DNA of 64,000 nucleotides from Candidatus Zymogenaceae bacterium (GTDB lineage: Bacteria > Desulfobacterota > Zymogenia > Zymogenales > Zymogenaceae): NCBI GenBank assembly GCA_016933535.1, contig JAFGAS010000059.1, positions 1 through 64,000 on the forward strand. The letters are read 5' to 3'. The stretch's first letter is position 1; each line of letters starts with the position of its first letter. Below the pieces are notes generated by a model that saw only the letters and a program-made list of their open reading frames with translations, was not told the DNA's origin and ran no database searches. Positions 12,849 to 19,771 of the stretch are shown piece by piece. The position numbers were made by a program, and so were the translations under genes.

Positions 12849-15553
12849 GGAGAAATTACGTGGGCGACCGATTCCCTTTCTTTAAGATAGGTTTTCCTGA
12901 CGTAAAAGAGCTCCGATCCCCGATCGGTGACCTTTCCGTCGAGCCGCTGCAGCAGAAGATCATTCAGGATGACGGAGAATATTTCTCCCGGCTCGATACC
13001 GAGGGACCGGAGGTCGTCGCCGGTCACCTCCACCCTGATTGCCTTGAGACGGGTAATAAACAGCGATATATAGCGCCGAATCGTATCGTTTGCGCTCATG
13101 GCCATCATAAACAGGAGCGTTTCGAGCATGAGGGGATCGAGTATCCGATAAATCTCGCTGGGGACAAGCTCCCGGGCCACGGACAGCTTTCTTGAGGCCG
13201 ACGTGACCCTCTCCAGTTGCCCGATCATCCTTTTTTGGTCCTGATGGCCGATCATGAGGCGTGCGAGGAGCCCCTTCCTGTCGTCAACGGTCAGATCCCA
13301 AATCAATGCGAACAGGAAGAGGCTGTTCTTATCGTACGTCTCCGGGAGGAAGAGGAGGTCGTACCAGGAGCGGACCTCCTTTACCTTCGAGAAGCGCGCC
13401 TCCATTTGCTCGGAGGTCTTGAGGTTCGGATGGATAAACTTAAGCAGGTCAAATGAGGATAGCCGCTCGATGATGACATACGGATCTTCCTCGTCAAAGA
13501 TGAGCTCCAGTTCCGAAAGGAGCCGAATGCCGGCCAGCCTGTCAAAGACATTGAGCTTGACGGCGTTCTTGATGAGTTTTTCCGTTTGCTTGCCGATGGA
13601 AAAGTCAAACCGCTTTTCGAAGCGGACGGCACGAAATATCCGCGTGGGGTCTTCAACAAACGAGAGATTCTGGATTACCCGTATGACTTTGTCCTTGAGG
13701 TCCCTGATGGCCCCGAAAAAATCTATGAGCGTTCCGAACCCTCGGGGATTGAGCTTCACCGCCAGGGTGTTGATGGAAAAATCGCGCCGGTAAAGGTCCA
13801 GCTTGAGGGTCGAACCTTCGACGACCGGCAGCGCCCCGGGGTATTCATAATACTCCGTTCGAGCCGTAGCGATATCCACCTTGAAACCGTCGGGATATAC
13901 GACCACGGCGGTTCCGAATTTTTCGTGTGGCCTGACGCGCGCCCCGGCCGTCCTTTCGAGGTGGCGCGCAAACGCGATACCGTCGCCCTCGATGACAATA
14001 TCGATATCGAAGTTATTCCGCCTGAGCCAGAGGTCCCGCACAAATCCTCCGACCGCATAGGCATTAAAGCCCAGGTCGTCGGCGGCTTTTCCGAGGTCCC
14101 TTAGAATGTCCATGATACGGGGAGTCAGCCGCTCCTCCATCAGTTTGACTACGGATTTGGTACGCAGAAGAGACCCGGCTTCCAGTTCATCGTCGGGGGA
14201 ATGGCCGCGTGGCGCCGCTCCATAGTAGAGCGCCCGCAGAAGATCGGTCCTCGTGATCGCGCCCATAAGCCGGGAATCGAGGACCACGGGCAAGAAACGC
14301 TGGTTCCTGTCGATGATCAGGGCCTGAATATCCCTCAGGGGGGTCTGGGGAGTGATCGTTGCGACCTCGGTGTTCATGAGCTCCCGAACCGGGAGGTCCC
14401 CTATGCCGTGGAACAGGCCCCGTTCGATGGTCTGCCGGGAAACCGTTCCAATCAGGCGGTTGTCGCCTTCCACCACCGCCAGGACATTGACGTTGTAGCG
14501 AGAGAGCATCTCGGCGGTATCCCTGAGGGTAAGGTCGGGCGAAACCGATTTAACCGGAAACGACATGATCTCGGCCGCCGTTCTGACGGGGTTTACCTTT
14601 TCGTGAAGCACCCTTACGAGCTTTTCCTTGGCCTCCACGAGCGTCATTCCGGAGACAGATGCCGAGGCCGCCGTCGAGTGTCCCCCGCCTCCGAAGACGA
14701 GCGCGATTTCGCCCACGTCCACTTCTTCCAGGCGGCTGCGGGCCACCAGATACGTCCGGTCGCCCAGCAGTGCCAGGACGAACAGGACATTAAGATTTTC
14801 CATGTCTTTGATCTTGTGGACGAGAACGGCAAGGTCTCCCACGTAGGATTCCTTGGTGATGGCAACGATCGTGACGTCGATGCCGTTTATCGTATGAGTT
14901 TCACGGTTCCTCAGCATCTCCCCGAGCATCTGGACCTGATCTGCGGTCAGCTCCTGGGTGAGCATGTCCGAGACGATGTTAAGGTTGGCGCCGGTCGTCA
15001 GCAGAAAGGCGGCGGCTGTGAGGTCTTCAGGCGTGGTGGATGTAAACGTCAGGGAGCCGGTATCCTCATAGATGCCCAGCATCATAATCGTGGCCTCATC
15101 CGGGGTGAGCGGTATGTTGCGCTCCTGGAGTATCTTGGCAAAGATCGTCGCGGTGGCCCCCGTCGGACGGATGACCTGGTGCGATCCGGTTATATCTTTA
15201 TCGCTGTCGGGGTGGTGGTCGTAAATGTGGACGTCGATGTTGGGCTTGTCGAGAAGCCGTTTAAATGGGCCGATCCTGTCCTTTTGGCGTATATCCACGA
15301 GGATGAGCCGGTCGACCGTGTCGAAGTCCACGTCCTTGATCCGAACGAAGTCAAAGGCGTAGAACGTGGAGCGGACAAAGAAATCCCTCAGGCTCTTTTC
15401 CTGAGATCCGGAAAAGGTCATCATGGCATCGGGATAGAGCTTCTTGGCGGCCAGCATCGACGCCATCGCGTCGAAGTCCGCGTTGACGTGGGTGGTGATT
15501 ACTTCCACGACGCTGTTCCTGGCAACCCCTTCGGGGTGATTCCGGTTACTCAA
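12845..15553 (-). CDS. DHH / double-CBS / tRNA nucleotidyltransferase fusion (A-adding type)
   Basis: This is a 902-residue multidomain enzyme. The N-terminal DHH phosphoesterase core has H22-x-N-x-D26-x-D28 and D-H-H at 112-114, and a DHHA1 part carries G-G-G-G-H-S. Two CBS domains (about residues 315-435) follow. The class II nucleotidyltransferase core has A-V-G-G-F-V-R-D and F-D-I-D-I-V-I-E-G-D (about 497-522), and an RNA-binding helical tail closes the protein. From family knowledge this layout matches Aquifex and Geobacter proteins that add the terminal A of tRNA CCA ends. In such genomes a separate CC-adding enzyme exists, but none is in this window. The CBS pair suggests adenine-nucleotide sensing (inference). 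It overlaps the upstream gene by 8 bases. Confidence 0.9.
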   Translation of the reverse strand: MSNRNHPEGVARNSVVEVITTHVNADFDAMASMLAAKKLYPDAMMTFSGSQEKSLRDFFVRSTFYAFDFVRIKDVDFDTVDRLILVDIRQKDRIGPFKRLLDKPNIDVHIYDHHPDSDKDITGSHQVIRPTGATATIFAKILQERNIPLTPDEATIMMLGIYEDTGSLTFTSTTPEDLTAAAFLLTTGANLNIVSDMLTQELTADQVQMLGEMLRNRETHTINGIDVTIVAITKESYVGDLAVLVHKIKDMENLNVLFVLALLGDRTYLVARSRLEEVDVGEIALVFGGGGHSTAASASVSGMTLVEAKEKLVRVLHEKVNPVRTAAEIMSFPVKSVSPDLTLRDTAEMLSRYNVNVLAVVEGDNRLIGTVSRQTIERGLFHGIGDLPVRELMNTEVATITPQTPLRDIQALIIDRNQRFLPVVLDSRLMGAITRTDLLRALYYGAAPRGHSPDDELEAGSLLRTKSVVKLMEERLTPRIMDILRDLGKAADDLGFNAYAVGGFVRDLWLRRNNFDIDIVIEGDGIAFARHLERTAGARVRPHEKFGTAVVVYPDGFKVDIATARTEYYEYPGALPVVEGSTLKLDLYRRDFSINTLAVKLNPRGFGTLIDFFGAIRDLKDKVIRVIQNLSFVEDPTRIFRAVRFEKRFDFSIGKQTEKLIKNAVKLNVFDRLAGIRLLSELELIFDEEDPYVIIERLSSFDLLKFIHPNLKTSEQMEARFSKVKEVRSWYDLLFLPETYDKNSLFLFALIWDLTVDDRKGLLARLMIGHQDQKRMIGQLERVTSASRKLSVARELVPSEIYRILDPLMLETLLFMMAMSANDTIRRYISLFITRLKAIRVEVTGDDLRSLGIEPGEIFSVILNDLLLQRLDGKVTDRGSELFYVRKTYLKERESVAHVISP

Positions 15554-17213
15554 ACCACCGCCGGGAGAACTTCTTAAGCGTGCCGTCGTCCTTCATCGAT
15601 TTGAGGACGTTGTCGATTCCCTTGAGATACGCCGGATCTCCGGGCCGCGGCATAGCCGCGCTGTAGGGAGAGATGACCATCGGCTTTTCGGTCATCACGA
15701 AATCTCTATCATCGAGCATATCCGAAAGCAGGAAATCGGCCGCATTCTTATCGACGATAGCGGCGTCCACTTCCCCCCGGTTGAGGGCGCGCAGACAGAT
15801 CTCGGTCGAAGAATATCCTTTGGAGAACAGGCCGGGGAGTTTTCGAACGTACACTTCCTCCACGCTGCCGGAGACGACCCCTACTTTCTTGCTGATCAGC
15901 TCAAAGATTTCCCTGGGAACCAGGTCGTTCTTCTTGACCACCAGGACCGATTCCTCGATACCCCACGGCTCGCCGACGAGAAAAGAGGCCGTTCTCTCTT
16001 CGTCTATCATCACCATCGGCTCGATATCGGACCGCGTTGCCGCAAGTCCGCTCGGAATCCGGGCACCCGAGAAGGAATTGAAGACGATTTCCCGGCCGAG
16101 CCTTCTTCCCATCTCGTTCATAACGTCAATAACGTATCCCACAAGGATTCCATCTTCATCGATATACTCATAGGGCGGCGTCTTGACGTTGAGGGAGACG
16201 ACGAGCTTCGTCTTCCTGCGCTCCGACAGATAGTCGGGCACCGTGATTTTTCCCGAGGTCAGAAGCGATTTTCGCTCGGCGATCTTCTGCCTCTGGGCGC
16301 CGTCAACCGACGTGGAAAAACCGGAGAGGTCAAGCCCCCCGTTTGTAAAGCTCATCAGGTAAACGCCGCCGACGGCCTTGCCGGAAACGGCGTCATCCAG
16401 TATCTTCTTGACGGCCGTGTCGTATCGATAGATGACGGAGGCGGCCACGTATTTGGGGGAGAGTTTCCTTTCGTCGTTTCCAAGTCCGATGATGGACATC
16501 TTCATTTTTTCTGCGGTCGAAACCCCGCCGAGGGTGCCCGTGCCGGAGACAATAAACACGGTATCGGCCCCCTTCTTGGCCAGCCGCATGACGGCCTCTT
16601 TTGTCTTGTCCCGGTCATAAAGGCCGTTTGCGTCGCCTTCCTCGGCGACGTATGAGACGATCGTCTCGGCGTCTCTCCGGGCATCCTTTACGCCGCCGGC
16701 AAACCCGTATTCAAACCGTTTGATCGGGTCAAAGGGTGCGCCGCCGACAAACGCGATCTTATTGGTCCTCGTGATCGTCCCCGCGATGTAGCCGGCCAGG
16801 TAACCCGCCTCGTCTTCCTCGAAAATGACCGAGGCAAGGTTATTGAGGGGTGCGCCTTCCGCGCCGATGAGTATGAACTGCACATCGGGGTTGGCCCGGG
16901 CGGCCTCAACGAGTGCGCCGCTCATTCCTCCCTCGTCGGTGGAAATCACGATGTCGGCCCCGAGGGCCAGCAGGTCTCCAACGGTCTTGTCGGGATAGAG
17001 CTCGAGGCGGGGAACCCTGACGATTGTAAGCCTTGTGTTCCTGGCCATCTCGGCCAGGACGGTGCTTACCGCGTCGTTATATCCGCCGTCTCCCATGCCG
17101 CGGCTGTCCATGACCCATCCGATCGTGATGGGGTGTTCGGTATCCTGCGCCGGACAAAGGGGTGCGAACAGAAAGAGAAAGAAGACAAAAAGCCACGGTC
17201 TGATGCGCTTCAT
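15546..17213 (-). CDS. Fused double periplasmic binding protein: BMP family plus SBP_bac_3 family
   Basis: This is a secreted 555-residue protein. The ATG at 17213 has a good GGAGG six bases upstream and opens a clear signal peptide (K-R-I-R, then a hydrophobic stretch ending C-P-A-Q). Residues about 30-325 look like the BMP/Med (PnrA) nucleoside-binding fold: I-G-W-V-M-D-S-R-G-M-G-D-G-G-Y-N-D, D-E-A-G-Y-L-A-G-Y-I-A-G and F-E-Y-G-F-A-G-G-V. Residues about 338-555 look like a family 3 solute-binding protein: P-P-Y-E-Y-I-D-E-D-G-I-L-V-G-Y-V-I-D-V and V-G-V-V-S-G-S-V-E-E-V. No permease, ATPase or sensor domain is encoded nearby. Two different binding-protein folds on one chain is unusual. Substrates are unknown. 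Confidence 0.82.
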   Translation of the reverse strand: MKRIRPWLFVFFLFLFAPLCPAQDTEHPITIGWVMDSRGMGDGGYNDAVSTVLAEMARNTRLTIVRVPRLELYPDKTVGDLLALGADIVISTDEGGMSGALVEAARANPDVQFILIGAEGAPLNNLASVIFEEDEAGYLAGYIAGTITRTNKIAFVGGAPFDPIKRFEYGFAGGVKDARRDAETIVSYVAEEGDANGLYDRDKTKEAVMRLAKKGADTVFIVSGTGTLGGVSTAEKMKMSIIGLGNDERKLSPKYVAASVIYRYDTAVKKILDDAVSGKAVGGVYLMSFTNGGLDLSGFSTSVDGAQRQKIAERKSLLTSGKITVPDYLSERRKTKLVVSLNVKTPPYEYIDEDGILVGYVIDVMNEMGRRLGREIVFNSFSGARIPSGLAATRSDIEPMVMIDEERTASFLVGEPWGIEESVLVVKKNDLVPREIFELISKKVGVVSGSVEEVYVRKLPGLFSKGYSSTEICLRALNRGEVDAAIVDKNAADFLLSDMLDDRDFVMTEKPMVISPYSAAMPRPGDPAYLKGIDNVLKSMKDDGTLKKFSRRWFE

Positions 17214-17282
17214 AATTCCTCCGGAAATCAAAATGAGTTCTCATCCGGCGTTGCGATCGACGCCGATGGTGTATCTAACCCT

Positions 17283-18437: not shown

Positions 18438-18506
18438 AATCAATTTAGTATAACAGACAGTGAGCGGCAATGTCAATCAGAAGGAATTTGTGATCCTGAG
18501 TTTTGT

Positions 18507-18581
18507 GGACACTATACTTAATTCGTTAGGTCTTTTGAACAAGCTGAAAAATCCGGAATTAAGTATGGTGTCCCCTTAATT
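18507..18581. repeat. Palindromic repeat element, copy 1
   Basis: This is an imperfect palindrome of about 75 bases. The left arm ATACTTAATTC, with GGACAC before it, is at 18507-18524. The right arm GAATTAAGTAT, followed by GGTGTCC, is at 18556-18573; the arms differ at one position. CCCCTTAATT continues the right side. A second copy with the same core lies at 19692-19771. From memory such ATTAAGTATGGTGTCCCC-type arms occur as REP-like elements linked to Y1 (REP-associated tyrosine) transposases; no such transposase is in the window. Confidence 0.7.
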
Positions 18582-18592
18582 CAGGGGAAACA

Positions 18593-18662
18593 GGCGGTTT
18601 GCGAACCGCCCCTATAAGCACCGGGACGTAATTTCGCCCGTGTGGGCGGCATTCTTGCCGCC
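18593..18662. repeat. Two GC-rich hairpins (REP-like)
   Basis: The first hairpin is GGCGGTT-tgcg-AACCGCC (18593-18610). The second is GGGCGGC-attctt-GCCGCCC (18643-18662) and ends 2 bases from the stop of the DUF3179 gene. There is no T-run on the minus side, so they look like repetitive extragenic palindromes and not Rho-independent terminators, although they may still shield the mRNA end. Confidence 0.5.
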
Positions 18663-18664
18663 CG

Positions 18665-19639
18665 TCAAGGCCGTACTTTTTCCCTATACACCCGGCATCC
18701 GGGAAACGTGAGGGCAAACCCGAACCAGCGCGAAACCAGCTGCATAGGCCGGTGGGTGAAGAGCTGGTTTCCGGCGTTGTCCCACAGCGCTCCGTCCCGG
18801 ACGACCTTTCCGTCCGAAAGGACAATAGCATCCTCCTCCCACCGGGCCGAGCCTCCTTTGATGAAGACCGCGGCGGGGACGTTCGAACCCGGATCAAGAT
18901 AGACCAACAACTGCCGTCCTTCGAACTCGTCGGTGAGAAGCCGGCCTTTTTTCTTAATTATGTCTCTCGGGTAGTATACCGAGCCCGTATCCGACCAGAC
19001 GCCCAGGCCGATCTCCCACCGGGGCAGGCGCCCGTCTTCGTCTCCCATCGTCGATCTTGCCAGCGGCAACAAAAACCGCCCCAGGGACCGGCGCATCCAG
19101 TCAAGCGAGACGGACATGATCCGTTCGGGAACTGACTGCCTGCCCACCGCAATCCGGGCGTTTGGGTGGGACCCCAGCGCTGAGGCCGCCGTCGAGTGCA
19201 GCAGCGGCGAGACAGGCAGGCGCTTTCCCGCGAGCTTACCGTCGACGCACTCGCCGGTGATGTGGTCCCACCACGATCCCGTCTCGCGGTCTCCGATCAG
19301 GACCATCCCGTTGTAGGTTCCGGCGATTTTAAACGAGAGGAGTTTACCGTCGACCTCCGGGGTCACGACCACCCCAGTATTGCAGGAGGGTCAGAAGAAG
19401 ACCCCCCAGTTTGTGCCGGAAAGCTGGCCCTGGGCGACGTGGTAATAGGACATCTGCGAGGTAAGCAGGACGATCGCGGCGTCACCACGCTCGACCACGA
19501 GGACCGGGGCGTCGCCCCTGATTTCGCCCCTTTTCAGGACGTCGGAGAGCGGCCGCGTTTCTTTTACCCGAAAGGGCCGGATAAAGTCGCCGCCGGCCGT
19601 TATTACCCGTGTCCTGTCAAACACCGCGGTAACGGTCAT
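18665..19639 (-). CDS. DUF3179-family protein with in-frame TGA, probable selenoprotein
   Basis: One continuous frame of 324 codons runs from an ATG at 19639 (AGGAGA nine bases upstream) to 18665, interrupted only by a TGA at 19393-19391 (codon 83). The N-terminal part (M-S-Y-Y-H-V, then N-W-G-V-F-F) and the C-terminal part (N-T-G-V-V-V-T-P, G-T-Y-N-G-M-V-L, E-T-G-S-W-W-D-H-I-T-G-E-C) together make one normal DUF3179 domain. The TGA falls exactly where the family has the first Cys of a C-P-x-C motif, giving U-P-S-C-N-T-G. A hairpin with a GGTC loop starts 15 bases after the TGA. The best reading is selenocysteine at position 83 in a redox or metal site. The alternative is a recent nonsense mutation. 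Function of DUF3179 is unknown, and no sel genes are in the window. Confidence 0.75.
19354..19390 (-). promoter_or_regulatory. SECIS-like hairpin after the in-frame TGA
   Basis: Read on the minus strand from the TGA: a 15-base spacer, then GGGGT, loop GGTCGTG, ACCCC. An outer CCTCC/GGAGG pairing is also possible (19389-19385 with 19358-19354). The apical loop starts 20 bases after the TGA and contains GGTC, as does the E. coli fdhF SECIS loop, which lies 18 bases after its TGA. It is inside the reading frame, as bacterial SECIS elements are. Confidence 0.6.
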
Positions 19640-19691
19640 GTGGGTCTCCTGTGTGATTGATAACGCCCGGGTGGCCCGGATGCGAGGGGGA

Positions 19692-19771
19692 ATTAAGGGG
19701 ACGCCATACTTAATTCCGGTTTCTTAGTTTAATCGAGGAGTATAATGAATTAAGTATAGTAGCCCCTTAAT
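19692..19771. repeat. Palindromic repeat element, copy 2
   Basis: The left arm is ATTAAGGGG, ACGCC, ATACTTAATTC (19692-19716). The right arm is GAATTAAGTAT, AGTAG, CCCCTTAAT (19747-19771). The outer nine and inner eleven bases of the arms match exactly; four mismatches lie between. It shares its core with the element at 18507-18581, and the two together bracket the DUF3179 gene. Confidence 0.7.

Follow-up and report, generated by a model that had tools for sequence, protein, structure and literature searches.

On the minus strand of the window, the 64,000-nucleotide stretch of Candidatus Zymogenaceae DNA analysed here, positions 18665 to 19639 in all likelihood encode a selenoprotein of the DUF3179 family, in which an internal TGA codon is read as selenocysteine (Sec). 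This reading, drawn from sequence comparison, agrees with the original prediction and is backed by several kinds of evidence: homologues carry cysteine at the position of the TGA, the genome holds tRNA-Sec, selA and selD, a downstream hairpin fits the bacterial SECIS (bSECIS) model, and orthologues keep the TGA free of further disabling mutations. In the proposed mechanism, the internal UGA at codon 83 would be decoded as Sec by SelB and tRNA-Sec, steered by a downstream hairpin with its apical loop, GGUCGUG, at a distance of 20 nt, while the terminal UGA, at which no hairpin of that geometry is present, would act as an ordinary stop.

The gene, which is defined by its frame, a Pfam match and a syntenic orthologue (L014/L102), comprises 324 codons including U83 and is followed by a terminal TGA at 18667-18665. 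Its frame runs for 82 codons to the TGA at 19393-19391 and continues for another 241 codons to the terminal TGA, and the internal TGA is the sole interruption between 19639 and 18668; the 324 codons contain neither a frameshift nor a second disabling change. A Shine-Dalgarno-like AGGAG, read directly at 19646-19650 (minus strand), stands 6 nt before the ATG at 19639. When the TGA is read through, the product matches a single DUF3179 domain (PF11376, residues 40-264) that spans the TGA, with 78.5 bits and an E-value of 7.7e-22 against a cut-off of 27 bits, which bears out the earlier proposal that the two halves of the frame form one such domain. The TGA occupies the first position of the C-P-x-C motif of the family, giving U-P-S-C, with the partner Cys at codon 86 (19382-19384, minus strand). 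The protein of 324 residues has no evident signal peptide. No matching DUF3179 selenoprotein model was found in NCBIfam, where a match to AllR lay far under the cut-off, and a scan of the window at the Rfam gathering thresholds returned no annotated RNA.

Among 395 genomes searched from the same phylum, 39 contained DUF3179 relatives, and the column corresponding to codon 83 was scored in 30 genes, namely that of the window and 29 others from this search. TGA was present in 17 of the 30 and Cys in the remaining 13; the alternative residue was always Cys and never Trp, in keeping with the suggestion that the TGA stands in for the first Cys of the motif. That TGA should fall precisely on the Cys column in so many homologues is far beyond chance. 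In the phylum sampled, the commonest Sec forms are UPLT, UPLA and UPLS; many Sec members, reading UPLT, do not have the second Cys. The closest relative, found in a genome of the same family (G051), is about 45% identical to the window protein and reads UAEC. It shares with the window the gene order hydrolase, FabG, FabA-like, SH3, URO-D, pyruvate kinase and Lgt, and is therefore taken as an orthologue that has retained the TGA. Identity between the two proteins is 40% before the TGA and 47% after it, a pattern that translation of the downstream part would predict.

Outside the phylum, TGA likewise stands at this codon in full-length relatives from Melghirimyces profundicolus (UGVC) and Marinithermofilum abyssi (UVVC), named isolate strains of the Thermoactinomycetaceae (Bacillota) that both possess SelB. 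In the order of Melghirimyces, the subfamily is present in 9 of 42 genomes, often as tandem copies, and occurs in TGA forms as well as Cys forms (CNIC, CPIC, CAIC). Several genomes of this order (L103, L104, L105 and L106) contain at least two DUF3179 copies, some of them adjacent, with Sec and Cys versions mixed. The Cys copy in L090 retains a hairpin resembling a SECIS, GGAACC..GGTTCC, which may be left over from earlier use of Sec. On the tree, the fewest-changes count gives four Sec/Cys changes, two of which are forced by well-supported branches. An alignment of four members of the soluble subfamily shows invariant residues that include U83, C86, H67, the Cys of codon 131 in ITGxC (19247-19249, minus strand) and the Cys of codon 315 near the C-terminus (18695-18697, minus strand); the column of His66, which adjoins His67, shows conservation of 90% or more across the wider DUF3179 family.

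Downstream of the internal TGA, the candidate SECIS element CUGGGGU[GGUCGUG]ACCCCGG occupies positions 19357-19377 of the minus strand. Published bSECIS criteria (PMC13188914) specify a loop of 3-9 nt with G in one of its first two positions, a stem of 4-16 bp, a spacing of 16-37 nt and a minimum free energy of at most -7.5 kcal/mol, and the window hairpin falls within all four limits, with its 7-nt loop GGUCGUG, 7-bp stem, 20-nt distance from TGA to loop and energy of -11.1 kcal/mol. As the original prediction proposed, the element resembles that of Escherichia coli fdhF: both have a stem-loop just past the UGA, a GGUC with G at the start of the loop and a 7-bp upper stem, although the sequence outside the loop differs from that of fdhF, and the window element is a candidate for SelB binding. 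Taken singly, the hairpin is not beyond chance (60-nt fold z = 0.19; amino-acid-preserving shuffle p = 0.15), and it reaches significance only across homologues. Against codon-preserving shuffles, whose codon weights were those of the window's own genes and are approximate for the other genomes, the median p was 0.037 in the 17 TGA genes versus 0.58 in the 13 Cys genes. Across 15 sequences, comprising the UPLT type and relatives, 88.6% of cells pair, and the covariation exceeds that of nearly all shuffles and of all slid registers. The covariation signal comes mainly from one pair between a wobble position and a first base (A-U, C-G, U-A, G-U, U-G); these sequences are related and not independent, and the covariation accordingly supports the hairpin structure without proving it. 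A separate hairpin, GGGCGGC..GCCGCCC at 18644-18663, begins 1 nt past the terminal TGA and is more likely a terminator-like element, since its loop is too near the TGA for the bSECIS model.

The genome from which the window derives is represented by an assembly of 2.94 Mb in 86 contigs that is 89% complete. It contains a tRNA-Sec with the anticodon UCA, selA (586 bits) and a Sec-type selD (361 bits), and the latter gene (L050, G000:C78:16036-16968) is itself a selenoprotein gene, with an in-frame TGA in the motif AAGUAAK. The proposed search for selA, selB, selC and selD therefore succeeded for all but selB, for which nothing above the cut-off was found in this incomplete assembly. The same was true of infB, which encodes the essential IF-2, and SelB is present in each of the three other genomes of the family. 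As both IF-2 and SelB were not found, genes essential for translation are missing from the assembly and calls of absence in it are unreliable; the missing selB consequently counts for little and most likely reflects missing sequence.

Two other explanations of the internal TGA have to be weighed, and each is very improbable. If the codon were a nonsense mutation in a decaying DUF3179 gene, or an error of sequencing or assembly, the draft state of the source and the failure to find selB in it would be readily accommodated. Such an accident would nevertheless have to recur at one and the same codon: the TGA is shared by the syntenic orthologue and by two isolates from another phylum, and within the window's own phylum about 15 further DUF3179 genes have it too; moreover, decay is at odds with a frame otherwise intact over 324 codons and with a level of identity past the TGA that equals or exceeds that before it. 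Equally remote is the idea that UGA is reassigned throughout the genome to another residue, such as Trp, or is read through by chance. Any code in which TGA is a sense codon would leave the frame open, but the gene itself is closed by a TGA where the C-termini of its homologues also lie, its neighbours read normally with table 11, scored homologues offer Cys and not Trp at the column, and the machinery for Sec is present.

With the TGA read as Sec, the product consists of two related repeats, residues 40-165 and 200-324, which hhalign aligns with an E-value of 6.6e-18. The first of these (19145-19522, minus strand) carries the Sec and, according to AlphaFold2 and Foldseek, has a predicted Rieske-like fold. 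AlphaFold2 models reached a pLDDT of 92 both for the whole protein and for the Sec half (residues 40-165). Foldseek searches with the whole-protein model gave no PDB match and only meaningless hits. With the model of the Sec half, Rieske proteins fill all of the top 20 rows, the best E-value being 0.014 and the probability reaching 1.00, and TM scores to the target are mostly 0.50-0.57 for small Rieske ferredoxins. The UxxC motif, judged by eye, lies near the CxxH loop of Rieske ferredoxins and the NirD small subunit. These proteins differ from the window protein in that a CxH motif is lacking in the latter, where UxxC stands in place of the CxxH of the Rieske CxH...CxxH ligands, and no sequence homology is detectable: hhalign gave no profile similarity to Rieske ferredoxins (probability 1.4%), and searches of Pfam and of PDB sequences for such a relationship were negative. 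The Rieske-like character of the Sec half is suggestive, a lead only.

As regards chemistry, the exchange of Cys for Sec in a CxxC pair makes thiol/selenol redox the most likely activity. In the first repeat, which carries Sec83-Pro-Ser-Cys86, Sec83 would be the selenol that attacks and Cys86 its resolving partner, and this role for the pair is somewhat favoured. Other UxxC redox selenoproteins, such as the thioredoxin, DsbG-like and Prx-like proteins, likewise have Sec for the first Cys of CxxC, but the window protein shows no sign of a thioredoxin fold and is instead predicted to be a duplicated domain, mostly beta, one half of which is Rieske-like. The main alternative is a metal site ligated by Se and S, in which U83 and C86 would lie within a Rieske-like fold, Sec would replace the Cys of the CxxH loop and His67 would perhaps be a further ligand. 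The Rieske proteins at the top of the Foldseek ranking for residues 40-165, the invariance of His67 and Cys131 in the four-sequence alignment and the conserved His66 column favour this arrangement; the modest best E-value, the want of similarity to Rieske profiles and the absence of the CxH of loop 1 make it rather unlikely. UPLT members, without the second Cys, fit neither a four-ligand site nor a simple UxxC pair. The redox or metal-linked function put forward for DUF3179 in the original prediction is plausible but unproven. More tentatively still than the redox pair, the structural models allow the whole family to be pictured as a duplicated Rieske-like redox fold that would have lost its [2Fe-2S] cluster and acquired a CxxC or UxxC(T) selenol site in place of the CxxH loop, a picture we consider doubtful.

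Neighbouring genes in the window encode an alpha/beta hydrolase, FabG and a radical SAM protein, and do not point to any functional link. The window and the G051 genome have the hydrolase/FabG neighbourhood in common, but the surroundings of the Melghirimyces gene showed no such arrangement. The selenoprotein gene is flanked by two long hairpins, at 18495-18585 and 19690-19771, both based on the motif GAATTAAGTATxGTGTCC; allowing one mismatch, the genome contains nine occurrences of this motif, one of them adjoining a gene resembling a REP-associated tyrosine transposase (L112 1564-2214), for which reasons the flanking hairpins are probably REP elements. Elsewhere in the window, positions 15546-17231 encode a protein of 561 residues in which a PnrA-like (Bmp) substrate-binding domain is joined to an SBP_bac_3 domain, bringing together two kinds of solute-binding protein in one chain.

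The implied novelty of DUF3179 as a selenoprotein family proved wrong. A 2022 review (PMC9312934), crediting work on an Olavius algarvensis symbiont (Zhang & Gladyshev, NAR 2007), tabulates DUF3179 (UxxC/T) among predicted selenoprotein families, and a 2026 review (PMC13188914) tabulates it again as a selenoprotein family. Since the family is already listed as containing Sec, the window gene is a well-supported further member of a known selenoprotein family and not the founder of a new one. It shares with the known Sec-containing DUF3179 proteins (PF11376, UxxC/T) the same Pfam domain, the same UxxC and the UGA at the Cys position of the family, but belongs to a short branch with the motif UxxC-[NH]-[TS]-G, which differs from the UPLT type, common in the sampled phylum, and also occurs in Thermoactinomycetaceae. 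The new elements are a soluble subfamily in which Sec and Cys have been exchanged several times, Sec members of DUF3179 in Thermoactinomycetaceae, the internal duplication and the suggestive, model-derived Rieske-like fold of the Sec half. Within a partial coverage of the literature, no paper naming both Thermoactinomycetaceae and selenoproteins was found.

A predicted and little-studied selenoprotein family is thereby confirmed in another lineage, and the presence of both Sec and Cys versions, some in tandem, in isolate strains (Melghirimyces, Marinithermofilum) means that the family can be studied in practice. Should the Rieske-like fold be borne out, DUF3179 would gain a structural setting and an active site open to testing; if the broader picture of the family is true as well, DUF3179 would represent a structural class of selenoproteins outside the thioredoxin fold, spread over at least two phyla and marked by repeated exchange of Sec and Cys.
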